From Haloterrigena salifodinae (GTDB lineage Archaea > Halobacteriota > Halobacteria > Halobacteriales > Natrialbaceae), in NCBI RefSeq assembly GCF_003977755.1, contig NZ_RQWN01000002.1, forward strand, positions 558,001 through 622,000: a stretch of DNA of 64,000 nucleotides, written 5' to 3'. The notes beneath the pieces are model-generated. The model had not been told where the DNA came from, ran no database searches, and saw only the letters and a list, made by a program, of their open reading frames with translations. Positions 39,932-50,540 of the stretch are shown here, piece after piece (position 1 is the first letter of the stretch; every line of letters starts with the position of its first letter). A program made the translations under genes and the position numbers.

Positions 39932-40120
39932 TCCGGCCCGTTCGCCTCCGCTCCGCCGCTCCCAGCTGCAGTTCTCCTAGCGTCCAACCTCACGCGCTCA
40001 CACCGTCCTGTCGGTAACTCGCTCGAATGACTGCGCTCGTCCCCTTGAGTGCTGTATGGTAGCCACAATATTTTCTCTCATTGGAAAGTTAATCCACAAC
40101 TATTGTTAGTCATATTGTCC

Positions 40121-40151
40121 AATTCTGACAAAGCCTGTATTTGTCGGAATT
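40121..40151. promoter_or_regulatory. Inverted repeat upstream of the tubulin-like operon
   Basis: AATTCTGACAAA (40121-40132) pairs over 12 bases, with one G-T, to TTTGTCGGAATT (40140-40151), loop of seven. It ends 30 bases before the TATA box at 40182. An operator for a dimeric regulator is the simplest reading; a terminator of the upstream propeller gene (190 bases away) is less likely. Confidence 0.55.
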
Positions 40152-40181
40152 AGGACCTCTCGAGTACAATCTGCCATAGAG

Positions 40182-40187
40182 TATAAG
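40182..40187 (+). promoter_or_regulatory. TATA box of the tubulin-like operon
   Basis: TATAAG, 39-44 bases before the ATG at 40226. An earlier ATG at 40190 would touch the TATA box itself, so it cannot be the start of the transcript from this promoter; that decides for 40226. Confidence 0.55.
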
Positions 40188-40225
40188 TAATGTGGACTGA
40201 ATTTCCAGACGATAACGACTGTCAT

Positions 40226-43200
40226 ATGAATTTACCAGAACGAATCTTCTCAGTCGGGGGTGCAGGAAAGCAAATCGCGTTGGAGCTACTCGAATCGGAG
40301 TGGGTCCTTCGCGAGATTCTGCAGCCACGACGGAATCCGCAGTCCGTGCGCGTAACAATTCTTGATACGGCCGAAGAAGAGGAGAACTCGGACCGAGAGC
40401 GAATCGCCGATATTCGCGAACGGGTCGCGACGCTGAAATCGGAGCTTCGGGAGACCGGAACCGGTCGTCCCGGCGACATCTCGATCGAGTACAAGATGAT
40501 CACCCGGAACATCCAACTCAACGACCAGAACGATCTGATCGGTGAGACCGCGGTGCCGCGGATCGCGGCCGGGAACGGGATGGACGAAAACGACTGGTGG
40601 GTCGAGGAACAGCACATCAACGAGAACCTCGACTTCGCGACCGGCGTCGTCCGGAAACGAGGGCTCGGAAAGGCCATGTACTACAAGGCCTACGCGGAGG
40701 ACGACGAACTGTCGACCTACATCGACCTCCCGGACAAGGGGAAGGTCGCCGTTCTCGCCGGACTCGGCGGCGGCACCGGCTCCGGGATCGTCATCGATCT
40801 GGCGCGTCACCTCCAGAAGAAACAGCGAACCGCGGAGATCACGCTGTTCGGCATCCTCCCGAACCACACCGAGGGGATCCGAGAGAACGCAAACGCCTTC
40901 GCCGCCCTCTCGGAACTCGAGTACCTCAACCTGATCGACGAACCCGCGTTCAAGGATCGCGTCCTCCTGCCGATCGATCCGACGGGCTTCGACGGCAAGG
41001 GCGGGAACAAGATCCAGAACGGGCAGCTGTTACAGGAGTTCGACGAAGCGATCGTCTACCTGATCGCCGCCTACTACAATACCGTCGGCACCGAGGACCC
41101 GTTCGCGGACTCGCCGACGTACGCGCCGTTCACGATCGGGATCCCCCAGATCCTCCGGTACAACGTCGAAGCGATCAACGAGGGACGGACCGCCCTTCGC
41201 GAGATCCTCTCGGCCAAGGAGGAAGCCGTGCAGGCCGAACGAGACATCTACACGCAGATCGAACGGTTCCTCGACAACCACTACGACGGCCCCAGCGGCG
41301 AGGGCCTCCGGGACCTCGACCGCGCGGACTTGAACGAGCGCTTCGACGAACTCCGATCGCTCCTCGACTTCGAACTGTTCAACGAACTCGAGTACGAGTC
41401 GGTCTCGATCTTCTCGGAGATCATCTCGGACGCCGAAAAGGAAAGCGAGGATATCTCCGAGCGGATCGACATCATCTCGGGGTCGCTCCGGGCCGTCGAT
41501 ACCGCCGGTCAGCAGGCCGGGCGGTTCGTCGACAACATCGACGAGAACCTCGCCGAAGCGCTCGAAGCGGACCTGAAGGCGATCGTCCAGCGACACCGAC
41601 TGCTCGTCCAGAAGCAGTCGATCGACGACAGCCGCGTCAGAGACGCCGTCGAGTACCTCATTAACAACGACGACGGCAGCGGCAACCCCGGTGTGAAACT
41701 CAACCGCCTCGAGACGCAGCTCTCCGATATTTCCGACCAGCGCGCCCGACTCGAGGACGAACTCGAGGAAACCGTCGAGGAACTCGAGCGACTCGAAGCG
41801 GAGCAGGCCGAGGAGATCGACCGGAAGGTTCGCGACTGGGAACGCGACGTGACCCAGACGCTCGAGCAGTACCAGGCGGTCGACGTCGAGGCCATCCGCA
41901 GCGACCTCTCGGCGCTGACGCGCGAACTCGAGCAGTTCGTCTCGGAGACCGTCAACGCTCGAAACGACACCGACGTCGAGCAGGTCTCAACCCAGGAGAT
42001 AACCCAGCAACTCGACGGTATCGAAACCGAACTCGACCGCGTTGGGATCGACTTCCACGAACAGCGCAGCGACATCGAAACGTCGATAGCGGCCCTCAAG
42101 GAGACGCGGAAGGCGGCCTTGACGATGAACACCGAGGCGGGAACCATCGAAAAGCTCACGCCGTGGTCCGGAAAGACCGAGCAGGCGAAGGAGGAGGCCC
42201 ACCGCAACTTCCGCGTCCAGAAGAACAAGCTCGACGAGCGGGGCGTGTTCAGCGTCGGTCCGCCGGGTTCGTCGTTCAGCGCGGAGGTCGAGTACAACGA
42301 CGGCGCGCTCCTCGACGAACTGCAGGCGCGAACGCGCGAACTCGAGGACGAAATCGTCAACGAACTCGCCCACCGACTCGAGTCGTTCGGCGCGGACCGC
42401 CGCCGCGAGATCGAATCGGAACTCGATCATGGCGCCGACTTCGGTCGCCTCCGGGAGATCGCTCGCGAGGCGTTCAAAGCCGAAATCGGCGGCACCGACG
42501 ACGTTCGAGAACGCAAGGCGGATCTCGAGGACGAACTCGAGGAACTCGAGCAGGGGTACGAGACCTACGAGGCGACGGTTGACCTCTTCGAGGAACTCAA
42601 CCAGCGCCGCGAGGCGTACGCGAACCGCCTCGCCGAGTTCAACCGGAAACGCAACGAGTACGACGCGGAAACGTCGACCCGCTCGGTCGCGACCGAGCGC
42701 GACGAGTCGGTGTACGTCAAGAACATCAAGCCGAACGACGTCTTCCGGGCGACCGGCGACGAGGGGATCGGCGACAGCGATCTGTTTAACAGCCGCGAGG
42801 AGAACCAGCGGGTCCACAGCTCCCTCGAGGATCTCGTCGAGAACGTCTTCAACGAACAGTACTCCGGGATCAAGAAGCGGAGCTTCAGCAAGGGCCGACA
42901 GCGGTACAACGATATCAAGGTCCGCGTCGGCGTGTTGAGCCAGGCGGTCCATCAGATCGATCCGGACGCCCTCGACTTCGAGAACCAGTTCAACAGCGCG
43001 TTCGATCTCGGTGCGAGCGGCAACCGCGTCGAGAACCCGTACACGACCTGGCAGCACGATATCGGCGACAGCTGGGACATCGGCGTGAGCGCCTTTATCG
43101 ACGGCATCTTCCTCGACAACCTGCGGAAGATGGTTCAGGCCGACGGCTACCGCTCCGGCTACGAGAAGCGTTGGTCCGAACTGGGTGACGACATCCTCAT

Positions 43201-43462
43201 CCACCACAACCACGGGCTCGAGGAGGGCTACTACGTCCGACGGAACGAGATGCTCAACATGGAGAGCGACGACGACGTCGGCTTCTATCTCCAGGACGAA
43301 CCCGACATCGTTCAGGGGCTGTTGGACGAGTACGTCGACGTCGTGTCCGTGGCTGATGAGGTGGACGGCGACGACGGCACCGATACCGATACCGATACCG
43401 ATACCGACGAACGGACGACTGCAGACGATCAGACCTACGAGTTCAGCGGTGGAGTGCAATGA
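40226..43462 (+). CDS. Divergent tubulin/FtsZ-like protein with long coiled coils
   Basis: 1078 residues. The N-terminal domain carries the nucleotide-binding pattern of the tubulin superfamily: SVGGAGKQIA at 9-18 and the tubulin signature GGGTGSG at 181-187, then ITLFGILPNHTEGIRENANA and IPQILRYNVEAINEGRTALR as in the T6 region. It fits the tubulin-like family found outside cell division (Tubulin_2-like). Long helices follow, with coiled coils at about 490-630 and 770-820, then a folded C-terminal domain and an Asp/Thr-rich tail. It has no membrane segment. ATGA overlap with the next gene shows tight coupling. Unlike FtsZ or CetZ it has a huge extension. The role is inferred to be polymer-based, with the membrane GTPase as partner. 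Confidence 0.8.
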   Translation: MNLPERIFSVGGAGKQIALELLESEWVLREILQPRRNPQSVRVTILDTAEEEENSDRERIADIRERVATLKSELRETGTGRPGDISIEYKMITRNIQLNDQNDLIGETAVPRIAAGNGMDENDWWVEEQHINENLDFATGVVRKRGLGKAMYYKAYAEDDELSTYIDLPDKGKVAVLAGLGGGTGSGIVIDLARHLQKKQRTAEITLFGILPNHTEGIRENANAFAALSELEYLNLIDEPAFKDRVLLPIDPTGFDGKGGNKIQNGQLLQEFDEAIVYLIAAYYNTVGTEDPFADSPTYAPFTIGIPQILRYNVEAINEGRTALREILSAKEEAVQAERDIYTQIERFLDNHYDGPSGEGLRDLDRADLNERFDELRSLLDFELFNELEYESVSIFSEIISDAEKESEDISERIDIISGSLRAVDTAGQQAGRFVDNIDENLAEALEADLKAIVQRHRLLVQKQSIDDSRVRDAVEYLINNDDGSGNPGVKLNRLETQLSDISDQRARLEDELEETVEELERLEAEQAEEIDRKVRDWERDVTQTLEQYQAVDVEAIRSDLSALTRELEQFVSETVNARNDTDVEQVSTQEITQQLDGIETELDRVGIDFHEQRSDIETSIAALKETRKAALTMNTEAGTIEKLTPWSGKTEQAKEEAHRNFRVQKNKLDERGVFSVGPPGSSFSAEVEYNDGALLDELQARTRELEDEIVNELAHRLESFGADRRREIESELDHGADFGRLREIAREAFKAEIGGTDDVRERKADLEDELEELEQGYETYEATVDLFEELNQRREAYANRLAEFNRKRNEYDAETSTRSVATERDESVYVKNIKPNDVFRATGDEGIGDSDLFNSREENQRVHSSLEDLVENVFNEQYSGIKKRSFSKGRQRYNDIKVRVGVLSQAVHQIDPDALDFENQFNSAFDLGASGNRVENPYTTWQHDIGDSWDIGVSAFIDGIFLDNLRKMVQADGYRSGYEKRWSELGDDILIHHNHGLEEGYYVRRNEMLNMESDDDVGFYLQDEPDIVQGLLDEYVDVVSVADEVDGDDGTDTDTDTDTDERTTADDQTYEFSGGVQ
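43381..43404 (+). repeat. Hexanucleotide microsatellite inside the tubulin-like gene
   Basis: Four perfect CGATAC units encode the DTDTDTDT stretch near the C-terminus. In-frame, so copy change would only alter the tail length. Confidence 0.8.
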
Positions 43463-44916
43463 TCACAGCCGCCGTCACCACACTCAACCGACACCGGGAG
43501 AAGGTCTCGCTGGTCGGCTACTTCGTCGTCATGCTCGGGCTGACGCTCCCGCTGGCGACGATGCTGGGGTCGGCCTACGAGGATGGGAAGCTCACGCGGT
43601 CGCTGATCGATCTCCACCTCCTCGTCGACGCGATCGATCTCGAGGGGGTGAGCGTCTTCCTCCTGGGGATCTTCATCGGGTTACTGATCCTGTTAACGAT
43701 CGATCCGAAGAAGCGCTGGCAGGGGTATCTCCTCTGGATCGGACTGGTCATTTCGTTGCTCGGCCTCTGGACGATCGGACTGTTCATTCCGAACATCGAC
43801 TTCACGTCGACGACGAACCTCGGTTGGCTCGCGGTCGGGATCCTGCTCGGACTCGTTCTCGGCGGCGGTCGGAAGTTGCTTCGGACCCAGACCGCACAGG
43901 CCTTCGAATTCCGCAGCGCTGCGAAGGGGATCTATCTGATAGTCGCCCTGCTGATCGTCAGCGCGTTGATCGAAACGCACCTCGTGTATCCGACGATCTT
44001 CGAAATCACCGCCGACGGCGTCTCGATCGTCTCTTCCGAGACGTCGGGCGTCTCGGTCGAGACCGACGGGCTCGCCCGGAACGCGGTGCTGAGCGGGATC
44101 TTTATCCTTACGGTCAGACGGTTCATCCAGTACGACTCCGAAGAGGACTTCTTCGTTCTCGGTCCACGCGGCTCCGGGAAGAGCCTCTTCCTCATCGGCG
44201 CGTACCTCGAGGCCCTGAACCGCGGCCGGAACGACGAAGCGACCAAGCAGACGCCGCTGCAGCCGAGCCAAGAACTCATGAAGATGGTCGAGAACCTCGA
44301 CCAGCGATCCGAGGGCTGGCTCATCGAGGCGACGGGTCGCGGCGAGATCAAGGACCTCGCGTTCCAGTACGTTCACGGCTCGACGTTCCCGAAGAACGTG
44401 AAGGTCTCGAGCATCGACTACGCGGGCGAGTATCTGAGCCGACTCCCCGACGCGCTGTCCGGCGCCGTCACCGAGGATGACGCCGACAACACGCTGTTAC
44501 GGCTCTCGGACGGCGTCGAAGACGCGGACACGCTGATCCTGCTGGTTGACCTCGAGCGGTACGCCAACGGCGAGTCGCTCGACATCTCGGAGTACTTCAG
44601 CATTCTCCAGGCAGCCAACGATAAGGGCATCTTCGTCGTGGCGACGAAGGCCGACGTCTTCATCGAGGACTTCCAGAAGGAACAGGGGATCGAACCCCAC
44701 CTCGCGTTCGACGAGTTCAAGGACTTCGTCAATCAGCGGCTCCGCCAGAGCGAACAGATCGATAGCCTCATTCGTCAGACCGCCGGCGCCGAGATTCACC
44801 CCGTTTACTATCAGACGACGGAGAACGAGAACGGCGATCGCGTTCCGATGCGCGACGAGACCGGCTCGGTCATGACGATCGGATTCGACCGCCTGCTCAA
44901 TGAACTCGGACGGTGA
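43459..44916 (+). CDS. Polytopic membrane protein with Ras-like GTPase domain
   Basis: 485 residues. Five predicted membrane helices lie within residues 17-175 (VSLVGYFVVMLGLTLPLATM; VSVFLLGIFIGLLILLTI; LLWIGLVISLLGLWTIGLFI; LGWLAVGILLGLVLGG; IYLIVALLIVSALIETHLV), with a short segment near 208. The cytoplasmic part is a P-loop domain: G1 GPRGSGKS (235-242), G3 SIDYAGEYL near 317-325, G4 VVATKADV near 392. The G3 and G4 motifs make it a TRAFAC GTPase rather than an ATPase; it resembles the membrane-linked GTPases noted in predicted conflict systems (double-GTPase families). The start overlaps the tubulin-like stop by ATGA. Confidence 0.78.
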   Translation: MITAAVTTLNRHREKVSLVGYFVVMLGLTLPLATMLGSAYEDGKLTRSLIDLHLLVDAIDLEGVSVFLLGIFIGLLILLTIDPKKRWQGYLLWIGLVISLLGLWTIGLFIPNIDFTSTTNLGWLAVGILLGLVLGGGRKLLRTQTAQAFEFRSAAKGIYLIVALLIVSALIETHLVYPTIFEITADGVSIVSSETSGVSVETDGLARNAVLSGIFILTVRRFIQYDSEEDFFVLGPRGSGKSLFLIGAYLEALNRGRNDEATKQTPLQPSQELMKMVENLDQRSEGWLIEATGRGEIKDLAFQYVHGSTFPKNVKVSSIDYAGEYLSRLPDALSGAVTEDDADNTLLRLSDGVEDADTLILLVDLERYANGESLDISEYFSILQAANDKGIFVVATKADVFIEDFQKEQGIEPHLAFDEFKDFVNQRLRQSEQIDSLIRQTAGAEIHPVYYQTTENENGDRVPMRDETGSVMTIGFDRLLNELGR

Positions 44917-44921
44917 AACAC

Positions 44922-47138
44922 ATGTCAGAACTAACAATATACGATTCACACGGAAACCCCTATGGAGACAGCGGGAGAGGGCATTCGAACGATCGGATCG
45001 AGGAGTTCTTCTTCGGCGGCGTCAAGCTGTATCTCGACGCCGGCTCCCGGACGGAACTGGTCGTCTTCTTCCGCGCTCGAGAATCGAACGTCGGTCGCGC
45101 CGAACAGTTCTACGCCGTGTACACCACGCGAAACACGCGCAACCTGTTCGAGAACTTCACGTCGGAGCTCCGCCAGCGGGTCGAGACCGAGTACGGAATG
45201 TCGATCGAGACGTCGTCCGACGACGTCCGGGTGTACGAGGCCCTCGGCGGCCGGAACGACTCCGTCCCTGGCTCGGAGTTCGACCACTCCGTCGTCTCGA
45301 ACCTGCTGCAGTCGGGGAAACGGCTGCGGTTCGGCGTGTCGTCCGCGAGCGGTGCACTGGCCCTCTGCTCGAAGTACCTTCAGGGGTCGGCAAACCGGGT
45401 CGCGATCGCGGACAACACGTCGATCGACGCCCTCGAGAGCTGCGATCTGGCGGTCGAGGTCGGAACCCATCGGGGCCTCGAGCCGCTGGGTGAGACGAGC
45501 CGCCTGATGGACGAGCAGCGCCGGAGCATGGAGGGCCAGTTGATAAACGAGAAGGTCACGACGATCAAACAGGAGGTCGACGACCTCCGGACGAAGACCA
45601 GCAAGAGCGACGAGCAGATCCGAAACCGGCTCAAACGACAGCTATCGATCTTCGAGACGCCACCGCCGCCGTCAAGTACCGGCGGTCGGTTCGATGCGTT
45701 GCCAGACCTGAGCCGTCCCCAGAAGCTCGCCGGGGGCGTGGTCGTTCTCGTAATTCTGATCGCGCTCGTTTCGGTCGCGACCGCAGGGCTACTGGGATTC
45801 CCCACCCCGCTCGCGGATGCGCTCGGCTTTAGCGACGACGCGAACGAATCGGAGGCCGCTCTCGAGAACGTCACTGTGGAGGGGATCGAGATAGCGAACT
45901 TCGACGAGCAACAGAACATCACACTCTCCGGAGACGAATTGAATGTCGCCGGAGAGACGGATCGGGACGCGGTACGGATTACGTTCTCTCCCGACGGAGA
46001 TAGCGGAGATGTGAACACCACGTCCGACGTCGGAGACGACAATTCGTTTGACGAGACGCTATCCGGACTCGAGCCCGGCAGCGGTAAACTGCTCGTCGAA
46101 GTAGAGACGGACGACGGCGAGTTCGAGTCGGAGATCGACAAATCGGTGACGCTCGAATCCGAGAGCGAGACGGACGTTCCGACTCTCGAGACCGAGTCGG
46201 TCGGCGACGAGTCGTTCGACGACCTCGAAGAGGCTGAAAACGCAGCGGTGACGCTGTCTGACGGCGAGTTGACTATCGAAGGGGCGACGAATCAGGAGAC
46301 CGTCAAGGTCTCGTTCGAACCCGAGGACGGGAACGAGACAGTCTCCAACACGACGGCTGTCGGTGACGGCTCATTCACCGTCACGCTCTCCGGACTCGAG
46401 CCCGGCAGCGGCGAACTGCTCGTCGAGGCAGGGTCGGACGACGGCGAGTTCGAGTCGGAAATCAACCAGTCGGTGACAGTCGAACTCGAGCCCGAACCGA
46501 CTCTCGAGACCAATTCGGTCGGCGACGAGTCGTTCGAAGAGCTCCAAGCGGCTGAAAACGCAGCGGTGACGCTGTCGGGCGGCGAACTGGCTATCAGCGG
46601 GACGACGAACCAGAAGACCGTCCAGGTCTCGTTCGAACCCGAAACTGGGAACGACTCAACCATCAACTCGATCGATGTCGAAGACGGTTCCTTCACCGTC
46701 ACGCTCTCCGGACTCGAGCCCGGCAGTGGCGAACTGCTCGTCAAAGCAGGGTCGAACGACGGCGAGTTCGAGTCGGAAATCGACGAGTCGGTGACAGTCG
46801 AACTCGAGTCCGAACCGACCCTCGAGGATATTATGGTCGGCGACAAACGGTTCGACGAACTCGAGGAGAACGAGAACGTCACGGTCTCGGACGGCGAGTT
46901 GACCGTCGAGGGGTCGACGAATCAGGAGACCGTCAAGGTCTCGTTCGAACCCGAGGACGGGAACGAGACTGTCTCCAACACGACGGCTGTCAGCGACGGC
47001 TCGTTCACCGTCACGCTCTCCGGACTCGAATCCGGCAGCGGTGAACTCCTGGTCAAGACCGGACTCGACGACGAAACTGACGAAGCCGAAGTGGAACGTC
47101 GCGCGGCGATTCGGCTCGAGTCGAACGGTTCGAACTAA
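44922..47138 (+). CDS. Single-pass membrane protein with four outer beta-sandwich repeats
   Basis: 738 residues. Residues 1-265 are a cytoplasmic domain (FFFGGVKLYLDAGSRTELVV, NLFENFTSELRQRVETEYGM) ending in a helix (NEKVTTIKQEVDDLRTKTSK). One membrane helix follows at about 268-291 (LAGGVVVLVILIALVSVATA). The rest is four repeats of about 105 residues with NGETV/GSFTVTLSGLEPGSGELLVE cores, acidic and Ser/Thr-rich, on the outside. There is no signal peptide. GGTGA-like GGTGA lies seven bases before the ATG at 44922 as a Shine-Dalgarno; a GTG at 44913 overlapping the previous stop is the alternative. It is third in the operon and may carry a signal across the membrane to the GTPase and the tubulin-like protein. 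Confidence 0.75.
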   Translation: MSELTIYDSHGNPYGDSGRGHSNDRIEEFFFGGVKLYLDAGSRTELVVFFRARESNVGRAEQFYAVYTTRNTRNLFENFTSELRQRVETEYGMSIETSSDDVRVYEALGGRNDSVPGSEFDHSVVSNLLQSGKRLRFGVSSASGALALCSKYLQGSANRVAIADNTSIDALESCDLAVEVGTHRGLEPLGETSRLMDEQRRSMEGQLINEKVTTIKQEVDDLRTKTSKSDEQIRNRLKRQLSIFETPPPPSSTGGRFDALPDLSRPQKLAGGVVVLVILIALVSVATAGLLGFPTPLADALGFSDDANESEAALENVTVEGIEIANFDEQQNITLSGDELNVAGETDRDAVRITFSPDGDSGDVNTTSDVGDDNSFDETLSGLEPGSGKLLVEVETDDGEFESEIDKSVTLESESETDVPTLETESVGDESFDDLEEAENAAVTLSDGELTIEGATNQETVKVSFEPEDGNETVSNTTAVGDGSFTVTLSGLEPGSGELLVEAGSDDGEFESEINQSVTVELEPEPTLETNSVGDESFEELQAAENAAVTLSGGELAISGTTNQKTVQVSFEPETGNDSTINSIDVEDGSFTVTLSGLEPGSGELLVKAGSNDGEFESEIDESVTVELESEPTLEDIMVGDKRFDELEENENVTVSDGELTVEGSTNQETVKVSFEPEDGNETVSNTTAVSDGSFTVTLSGLESGSGELLVKTGLDDETDEAEVERRAAIRLESNGSN
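45865..47125 (+). repeat. Four tandem 318-base coding repeats
   Basis: Repeat starts near 45865, 46180, 46498 and 46818. The last three share long identical DNA stretches, for example FEPEDGNETVSNTTAV coded nearly identically at 46315 and 46945, so the array expanded recently; the first is diverged. Fit for copy-number change by recombination. Confidence 0.8.
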
Positions 47139-47158
47139 TCGATTACCGACGGCGGCTA

Positions 47159-47164
47159 TTTTTT
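47159..47164 (+). terminator. T-run after the tubulin-like operon
   Basis: TTTTTT, 21 bases past the last stop, the usual form of an archaeal intrinsic terminator. Confidence 0.5.
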
Positions 47165-47241
47165 CACGCAGGAGTAGATGAGGTCAGAAGAGTCGGTTCG
47201 TGTCAGTCCCACTCACGCCGACGCGAAGAAAAAGGAAGAGT

Positions 47242-47271: not shown

Positions 47272-47342
47272 GCGCGGATGGTCTAGTGGTAGGACCTGAG
47301 CCTTCCAAGCTCATGGCCCGGGTTCAAATCCCGGTCCGCGCA
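47272..47342 (+). tRNA. tRNA-Gly (anticodon TCC)
   Basis: 71 bases folding into a full cloverleaf: acceptor GCGCGGA with TCCGCGC and discriminator A, D-arm GTC/GAC, anticodon stem TGAGC/GCTCA around loop CTTCCAA (anticodon TCC), T-arm CCGGG/CCCGG with loop TTCAAAT. No intron and no encoded CCA. A T-run follows at the 3' end. Confidence 0.97.
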
Positions 47343-47439
47343 CTTTTCGACGACGGACGTGAGGAGAACATGTACAAGAGGGATTTGAAGCACGCGAGTC
47401 GCAGTGTCTGAGCGCAGTGAGGACAATCGTCTCTCAGTC

Positions 47440-47462
47440 GAGTTCAAATCTCGGTCCGCGCA
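47440..47462 (+). repeat. att-like copy of the tRNA-Gly 3' end
   Basis: 23 bases that repeat the tRNA 3' end (47320-47342) with two changes. The two changes are complementary: GGG...CCC became GAG...CTC, so the T-arm can still pair. Such direct repeats mark integration sites of elements that target tRNA genes. The 97 bases between the copies hold no gene, so only a scar or one boundary is visible. Confidence 0.7.
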
Positions 47463-48858: not shown

Positions 48859-50540
48859 CTAATCCAGTCGTTCCGTGGGAGTAGTGCTCTCCGAAGACGA
48901 GTCGTACGTGGAATCGCCGGCACCGTTCCGAATCGAGGTCAGATCGATGCCTTTTCTCTTCGCATCGAATTTCGAAAGTCCGTAGACGACTCCGACGAGC
49001 AGGAGCACACACACCGGCAGCAAAGCCACTGGACTGGTTTCAAAGAACCCATATGTCAAGTAGAACAGAATCGAGACGATTGCGACGGTCACGGCGTAGT
49101 AACTCTGCGTGCGAACGTGTGCGATGAGGTCCGTCCCGGTAAACGTCGATGAGAGAACGGTAGTGTCGGAAATCGGAGAGGTGTGGTCGCCGAAGATCGC
49201 GCCGGAAAACACTGCCCCGACGACCACGGACGTGGAGCCGAACCCGCCGGTAAGTTCGAACGCGACCGGAATGGCGGTCGGCGTCAGGAGTCCCATCGTT
49301 GCCCAAGACGACCCCATCGTAAAGGAGATTACTGCTGCGACCAAAAAGACGAGCGCCGGGAAGATACCGGGCGAAAGGATGGTTTCGACCGAACTAGCGA
49401 CGTAGTTCCCGGTCCCGAGTGCGTTGGCGACGGTTCCGATCGTCCACGCTAATACGAGGATCGTTACTGCGGTCAACATGAGCCCGAATCCCTCGAGAAT
49501 CGCGTCGATACTTTCGTCGAGATCACAGAGATCGTACGCGAGTCCGATCGCTATCGCCGTCATCACCATCGCGAACGACCCCACATGAGGGCAGTCGTCC
49601 ATGCTCCGTCACCCGCGATAGTGACCATCTCTCGAACGAAGGACGTGATTTCGAGAGCGAATAGCGGCTCGAATACGGGTTGTCCGTTGTACCCGGTCCA
49701 CAACGCGCCCCCGATGGTGACGGCGAGTAACATCGAGATCGGGAGGAGGAAGGTCCGGAGCATCGGTCGGGTAGCGTTCGGTTCACTGAGGCTTTCGTTC
49801 ATGTCCTGCAAGGGGTCAGCATCAGGGGCACTAACTGCGCCGGTCGTCTGCGCTCGGTGCTCGGCGTCGAGCATTTCACCGTAGTCCCACTGCGTTGTAA
49901 CGATAATACCGACCATAACGATGGAGAGGATGGCGTACGCGTTGTAGGGGATCGATTGAAGATAGACAGTGAACACGTCCGGCGCCTGCGCGGCGCCCTC
50001 CGATTCGATGTTGCTGAACCCTTCGTTGATCATCGACAGCTGGAACGCGACCCAGCTCGAGATACCGATCGTCGCGACGGGCGCCGTCGTCGAGTCGACG
50101 ATATAAGACAGTTTCTCGCGAGAGATCCGAAGTCGATCCGATGCTTCGCGCATCGTATTTCCGACGATCGCCGTGTTCGCGTAGTCGTCGAAGAAAATTC
50201 CCATTCCGAGAATCCACGTCATCAGTCCGATTTTCCGTCGAGATTCGAGTCGCTCGACGGCCCAGTTCCGGACGGCGATAGCGCCGCCGAGTCGCCAGAT
50301 GAGGGCGACACCCGAACCGAGGAGAAGCGTGAACACCAGTATCTGAGCGTGGAAGCCGTCGTCGGCGATGATCGCCTCGATCAGCCAATCGAACGACTGA
50401 GCGATCCCGAAACTACCGGTATAAATGATTCCGCCCGCCCAGATGCCGATGAATAGCGAAGGGATGACGCGTTTCGTTGCGATTGCTAACACGATCGCCA
50501 GCAATGGCGGTCCTATCGATAATATTCCAAACTCGGACAT
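48859..50540 (-). pseudogene. NhaC-family Na+/H+ antiporter, split by a one-base frameshift
   Basis: Two consecutive frames together give one NhaC-type transporter of about 560 residues with 11-12 helices. The N-terminal part (50540 down to about 49563) has IGPPLLAIVLAIATKRVIPS and GMGIFFDDYANTAIVGNTMR; the C-terminal part has GSSWATMGLLTPTAIPVAFE and FGDHTSPISDTTVLSS. The break is at the CCCC run 49579-49582 (GGGG on the coding strand): one extra G joins ALMWG to SFAMVM exactly. The protein would exchange Na+ or H+ for a substrate; beside arginase and an aminotransferase gene an amino-acid substrate is plausible. Either a real mutation or an assembly deletion. Confidence 0.85.

Follow-up and report, generated by a model that had tools for sequence, protein, structure and literature searches.

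The closest described relatives of the locus analysed here are operons of the FtsZl1 family, in which an FtsZ-like protein is accompanied by a P-loop GTPase that in archaea is membrane-associated (Makarova and Koonin, 2010; PMC2875224). FtsZl1 proteins have an N-terminal FtsZ-like domain, an extended coiled coil and a helical C-terminus, with Huta_2051 (1051 aa) as the type protein, and a vWA protein or kinase is a frequent but not obligatory neighbour. The T6-H7 region and the C-terminal tubulin domain were not identified, and whether they are absent or unrecognised was left open. Two questions have stood since 2010, namely whether FtsZl1 has a complete tubulin fold and what role its GTPase partners play. 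A broader class of systems, which combine a tubulin, a double-GTPase and FNIII repeats, was described by Kaur et al. (2020; PMC7159879), with a glutamate in Walker B/G3 as a mark of the double-GTPases. Eukaryotic GTPase regulators with longin-DENN modules include DENND1, FLCN-FNIP and C9orf72-SMCR8 (PMC3521125; PMC8213707), and DENN has been described as a eukaryotic module (PMC3521125).

The window, a stretch of 64,000 nucleotides from Haloterrigena salifodinae, is haloarchaeal chromosomal DNA from contig C2 of an almost complete genome. Three tightly spaced, co-directional genes with intact open reading frames occupy positions 40226-47138 (all features are on the + strand), and they encode what the original prediction described: a 1078-residue protein with a GGGTGSG signature (P1, 40226..43462), a membrane GTPase of 485 residues (P2, 43459..44916) and a single-pass surface protein of 738 residues with four outer repeats (P3, 44922..47138). 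Homologues favour the ATG at 40226 as the P1 start over an upstream ATG at 40190, and the P2 start at 43459 overlaps the P1 stop by ATGA. Of the two start/stop overlaps first proposed, this one is real, whereas the GTGA overlap between P2 and P3 depends on a less likely GTG start at 44913; homologues instead share the ATG at 44922, 5 bases past the P2 stop, as the P3 start.

P1 has the FtsZl1 layout, and its neighbour P2 corresponds to the membrane-associated P-loop GTPase partner of the archaeal FtsZl1 operons, while no vWA protein or kinase is found among the ten flanking genes. With the double-GTPase (DO-GTPase) systems the locus shares a TRAFAC-type GTPase with the G3 glutamate and transmembrane helices, linkage to a tubulin gene and a beta-sandwich repeat protein, and a mobile and patchy occurrence. 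It differs from the DO-GTPase/GAP1-N2 systems in having one GTPase only, no GAP1 protein, and a third protein whose inner domain is longin/DENN-like by predicted fold. GAP1-N2 scored above its cut-off in 0 of 21 and 0 of 148 genomes, and P3 homologues gave no GAP1 match at E <= 0.1, although P3 and GAP1 may be remotely homologous. One weak GAP1-N2 match was discarded, as it fell on a protein resembling a secreted papain-type protease. The original prediction held that a system of this make-up could not be named; the tubulin-GTPase pair and the broader class are in fact already known (PMC2875224; PMC7159879). What is new is that the tubulin fold is split and that the receptor has a longin-DENN-like domain, and an incomplete literature search gave no earlier report of either; the available part of the FtsZl1 paper does not describe the P3 inner domain.

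P1 matches both Tubulin_2 (PF13809; 45.6 bits, cut-off 27) and Tubulin (PF00091; 36.1 bits, cut-off 33), and Tubulin_2 is matched by 34/34 P1 homologues at E <= 0.001. The N-terminal tubulin GTPase domain (residues 1-312, 40226..41161, delimited by model secondary structure) houses the T1 sequence GGAGK at residues 11-15, kept in most homologues, and the T4 GTP-binding loop GGGTGSG (residues 181-187, 40766..40786), in which five glycines are invariant among the 34 homologues and the other two positions are T/S and S/A. The AlphaFold2 model of P1, built from 34 sequences, has a mean pLDDT of 84.8; Foldseek matched it to TubZ, FtsZ, CetZ and tubulin with probability 1.00, and VIA-align superposed 317 of 330 residues on CetZ1 with a Z of 23.4, bearing out the tubulin fold first proposed. 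A helical and coiled-coil insert (residues ~314-890, 41165..42895, from model helices and structural matches) follows the GTPase domain. Structural matches resume past the insert, with most FtsZ chains ending at P1 residue 960-962, CetZ at ~984-989 and tubulin at ~1023. Because the FtsZ and CetZ alignments end far beyond the coiled coil, and from the helix/strand order of the model, the predicted fold begins in residues 1-312, is split by ~550 mostly helical residues and is completed in residues ~891-1045 (42896..43360), with the exact insertion point inferred from the model. The model thus supports the view that the missing fold elements of FtsZl1 are unrecognised rather than absent.

Like CetZ, FtsZ and TubZ, P1 combines the tubulin fold with the T4 signature, but it differs from them in its ~550-residue helical insert, in the linkage of its gene to a membrane GTPase and in having no recognisable T7. 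No invariant acidic residue corresponding to the T7 catalytic acid motif occurs within residues 285-300 across the 34 homologues, which makes GTP-driven polymerisation, or catalysis in a polymer, uncertain. The same genome contains other tubulin-signature matches (G000:C1:1699913, G000:C2:156090 and G000:C2:884159), which are probably FtsZ/CetZ paralogues; the stretch C2:884072-884314 also scores with Tubulin_2, near the cut-off.

P2 is double-GTPase-like, with a membrane region (residues 18-223, 43510..44127) ahead of the GTPase motifs G1/Walker A GPRGSGKS (residue 235, 44161..44184), G3 DYAGE (residue 320, 44416..44430), in which Glu replaces the usual Gln to give DxxGE, and G4 TKAD (residue 396, 44644..44655; TKxD). 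All three motifs are kept in nearly all close homologues. The five helices first described are those given by hydropathy. A sixth, at ~205-223, is indicated by homologues, in several of which it is above threshold, and by the positive-inside rule; with it, the N-terminus would lie on the inner side of the membrane together with the GTPase. P2 carries the double-GTPase hallmark, and its class assignment is based on the motifs and on sub-threshold profiles: Pfam DO-GTPase2 scores 14.2 bits against a cut-off of 27 and matches weakly in 16/28 homologues. No phage record matches P2, and a virus origin is accordingly not favoured.

The inner part of P3 is where the locus may bear on the role of the GTPase partner. 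A cytoplasmic domain of residues 1-205 (44922..45536) precedes a transmembrane helix at about residues 265-290 (45714..45791, by hydropathy). AlphaFold2 modelled residues 1-205 with pLDDT values of 77-97 in 10-residue blocks, mostly above 90, and in the model the strands and helices succeed one another as in a longin domain with a small alpha/beta domain after it. The best Foldseek match to this domain was weak (E 0.045), but the rows near the top had a common theme and included FLCN, FNIP2, AP2 mu, TagF, GATOR1, Lst4, DENND10 and C9orf72-SMCR8 amid unrelated rows. VIA-align ranked DENND1A, DENND1B and DENND10 as the top three (Z 5.2-5.4, 167-174 residues, spanning 1-210); the structures, 6ekk and 3tw8 (Rab35 exchange factors) and 8p0v (DENND10), are all of DENN-module proteins. 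The rows with more than 160 aligned residues across P3 1-210 were these three DENND structures and TagF, and lower matches over residues 1-100 were to longin and roadblock proteins, including those of Mon1-Ccz1, GATOR1 and Sec22b. A Z of ~5 is below 8, the level at which the tool trusts a match. The resemblance of the P3 cytoplasmic domain to longin-DENN GTPase regulators is thus suggestive only. 

As in those regulators, the P3 model aligns over a longin domain and the alpha/beta domain that follows it, the longin part has an invariant arginine, and two P3 relatives hold two such modules per chain. P3 differs from them in its low Z, in being fused to a transmembrane helix and ectodomain, in lacking sequence similarity (its N-terminal 205 residues matched no convincing Pfam family, and no profile linked P3 to longin or DENN), and in the d-DENN, since the AlphaFold2 model has no third globular domain ahead of the linker and transmembrane helix. 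The invariant residue is Arg59 (45096..45098), in the loop between beta4 and beta5, which is kept in 20/20 close P3 homologues and aligned in 8/16 distant ones. In SMCR8, an arginine of the longin domain is the catalytic finger. Arg59 is a candidate arginine finger and might correspond to that residue. P3 homologues also show weak, sub-threshold HTH matches, which probably fall in the helical linker.

Outside the membrane, P3 carries four beta-rich repeats of ~104 aa (45843..47111), seen as repeats in both protein and DNA, with pairwise identities of 39-74%. The fn3 profile scores 18.8 bits on P3, below its cut-off of 25, and across genomes the outer beta-sandwich domains vary among CarboxypepD_reg, PEGA, SpaA and Big_1. 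Among four sister genomes, pairwise dN/dS rises from 0.01-0.04 in the P1 tubulin domain to 0.06-0.12 in P2, 0.16-0.26 in the P3 inner domain and 0.43-0.63 in the P3 outer part, which is thus more than 10 times higher than the P1 tubulin domain. These values fit relaxed or diversifying selection on the outer part; being below 1, they decide neither and are no proof of positive selection. At loci L121-L127, the trio is followed in several genomes by more repeat-rich proteins of the P3 similarity cluster, and most of these loci also have a protein of ~205-225 aa (cluster c3).

The original prediction treated the three genes as a unit, and the neighbourhood survey supports this. Neither of the outcomes that the prediction named as fatal to it, rare co-occurrence and lack of a tubulin fold, was observed. 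Across a sample of 392 genomes from the order, 41 have P1, 48 have P2 and 33 have the P3 inner domain; P2 is present in 40/41 genomes with P1 and 33/33 with P3, and the gene order is conserved (hypergeometric p ~2e-45 for P1 and ~1e-36 for P3, phylogeny being ignored). Nearly all close versions keep the order P1-P2-P3, while their flanking genes differ. In the majority of distant versions, the P3 inner-domain profile locates the partner downstream of the GTPase gene; two of these versions carry the domain twice in a single chain. Six methanogen loci have a P1-like gene with a P2-like gene after it, and in five of the six a third protein comes next, whose start resembles the longin part by eye. 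Plasmids are among the replicons that carry the unit, and the full trio, with a match to the P3 inner-domain profile, is present on a Methanohalobium plasmid. Of 187 genomes of the phylum, 40 have a Tubulin_2 score above the cut-off. A single-protein scan gave 5 loci only. Pairwise distances for P1, P2 and the P3 inner domain correlate (r 0.92-0.97; 0.97 for P1-P2), a range that common descent of the host lineages would by itself also produce. In distant haloarchaeal loci (L140, L143 and L147-L152), a membrane GTPase paralogue without G1 stands beside the P1-like gene, mostly next to the active GTPase as an active/pseudo-GTPase couple, and in three methanogen loci (L195, L196 and L198) the genes are followed by a fourth one for a secreted protein whose repeats resemble PEGA on visual inspection.

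Comparison with sister genomes delimits the unit at 39936..47203: in G026, window position 39935 is joined to 47204 with ~130 bp in between, and exactly 39936-47203 is missing. A second sister genome lacks the cassette together with the beta-propeller gene, and in a third genome, from another genus, the cassette is on a different contig, the corresponding site here being empty. These comparisons show the three-gene unit to be a clean accessory cassette, and it seems to be a mobile one. It is bordered by a tRNA-Gly(TCC) gene (47272..47343, ARAGORN). There is no support for integrase-type insertion at the tRNA, since the cassette is positioned 5′ of the tRNA-Gly rather than at its 3′ end, separate searches of the two border stretches revealed no repeats in either, and outside the genus no tRNA-Gly lies directly beside the cassette. 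A near-copy of about 23 bases of the tRNA-Gly 3′ end (47320-47343) is found ~120 bases downstream, at 47439-47462, and resembles the remnant of an attachment site. It opens a low-GC stretch at 47-57 kb with antiporter, aminotransferase, arginase, dehydrogenase and IclR genes, where the Na+/H+ antiporter gene (48859-50540) is split over two overlapping open reading frames (49563-50540 and 48859-49602), which suggests a frameshift.

We propose that P1, P2 and P3 form one membrane-anchored signalling and assembly module, in which P3 switches P2 and P2 controls the assembly of P1, and we put the probability of this reading at about 0.45. P3 would present rapidly diversifying beta-sandwich repeats outside the cell and the longin-DENN-like domain inside, where the latter would bind P2 and alter its nucleotide cycle, either in a GAP-like manner through Arg59 or in a GEF-like manner. 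P2, held in the membrane by its five or six helices, would then recruit or release P1, whose coiled coil would project from within the fold, allowing a tubulin-like assembly at the membrane site engaged by P3. The modelled fold of the P3 inner domain suggests a GTPase regulator, and the step from P3 to P2 would follow from this resemblance and from the strict pairing of the two genes, which make it more specific than in the path from outer repeats through GTPase to tubulin that was first envisaged. The step from P2 to P1 may be read from pairing and co-divergence. We infer the direction of signalling, the polymerisation of P1 and the nature of what is sensed, a surface ligand varying between strains or attackers. 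The fuller proposal is that non-Asgard archaea possess a longin-DENN-type regulator, forming the cytoplasmic half of a surface receptor, and that this regulator acts as the switch of a membrane GTPase controlling a tubulin-like polymer; we regard it as doubtful.

Such a module might serve defence, cell shape or adhesion. A conflict or defence system of the kind described by Kaur et al. (2020), whose repeats detect an attacker (a virus or competing cell), whose GTPase sets a threshold and whose tubulin-like protein forms an abortive or blocking structure, would share the theme of a DxxGE GTPase near the membrane, a tubulin and beta-sandwich repeats, and would suit the patchy occurrence (41/392 genomes), the clean presence or absence at one site, the fast-evolving ectodomain and the plasmid copies. 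GAP1-N2, the second defining part of those systems, is nevertheless missing in the genomes searched, and the unit holds no toxin or nuclease effector. The PADLOC models gave weak matches only, the best being mad8 on P2 (17.7 bits), and the vicinity of a defence island, raised in the original prediction, was not seen among the genes flanking the cassette, which are type IV pilus, methyltransferase, beta-propeller and arginine catabolism genes. We regard defence as rather unlikely.

Much the same standing belongs to an apparatus for membrane remodelling, cell shape or surface attachment, with P3 as an adhesin or envelope anchor and P1 and P2 shaping the membrane beneath. Remodelling was the role put forward for FtsZl1 proteins on the basis of their contexts (PMC2875224), CetZ, the nearest solved relative of P1 by fold, acts in cell shape (PMC10606840), and both the surface-type domains of P3 and the strong purifying selection on P1 and P2 are in keeping with such a machine; against this, sister genomes within the genus do without the cassette, and no vWA protein or kinase adjoins it in the window. 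It is least probable that P2 and P3 alone form the functional core, as a GTPase-regulated surface receptor or transport aid with P1 as an optional partner. Five genomes (G007, G008, G022, G096 and G147), as well as more distant loci, do have P2 with P3 directly downstream and no P1, but 29 of the 33 genomes that match the P3 inner domain also contain P1, the distances of which track those of P2 (r 0.97).

The P1 model gives a concrete answer to the question of whether FtsZl1 has a complete tubulin fold, namely that the fold is split by the coiled coil, and the P3 domain provides a concrete, mutable hypothesis for the role of the GTPase partner. With three genes and one receptor, this minimal form lends itself to testing more readily than the large bacterial operons do. 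A longin-DENN-like regulator in P3, if that is what the inner domain is, would bear on the origin of the eukaryotic GTPase-regulator folds and, if the fuller proposal is true, non-Asgard archaea would possess a prokaryotic receptor-to-tubulin circuit made from folds that in eukaryotes operate membrane traffic.
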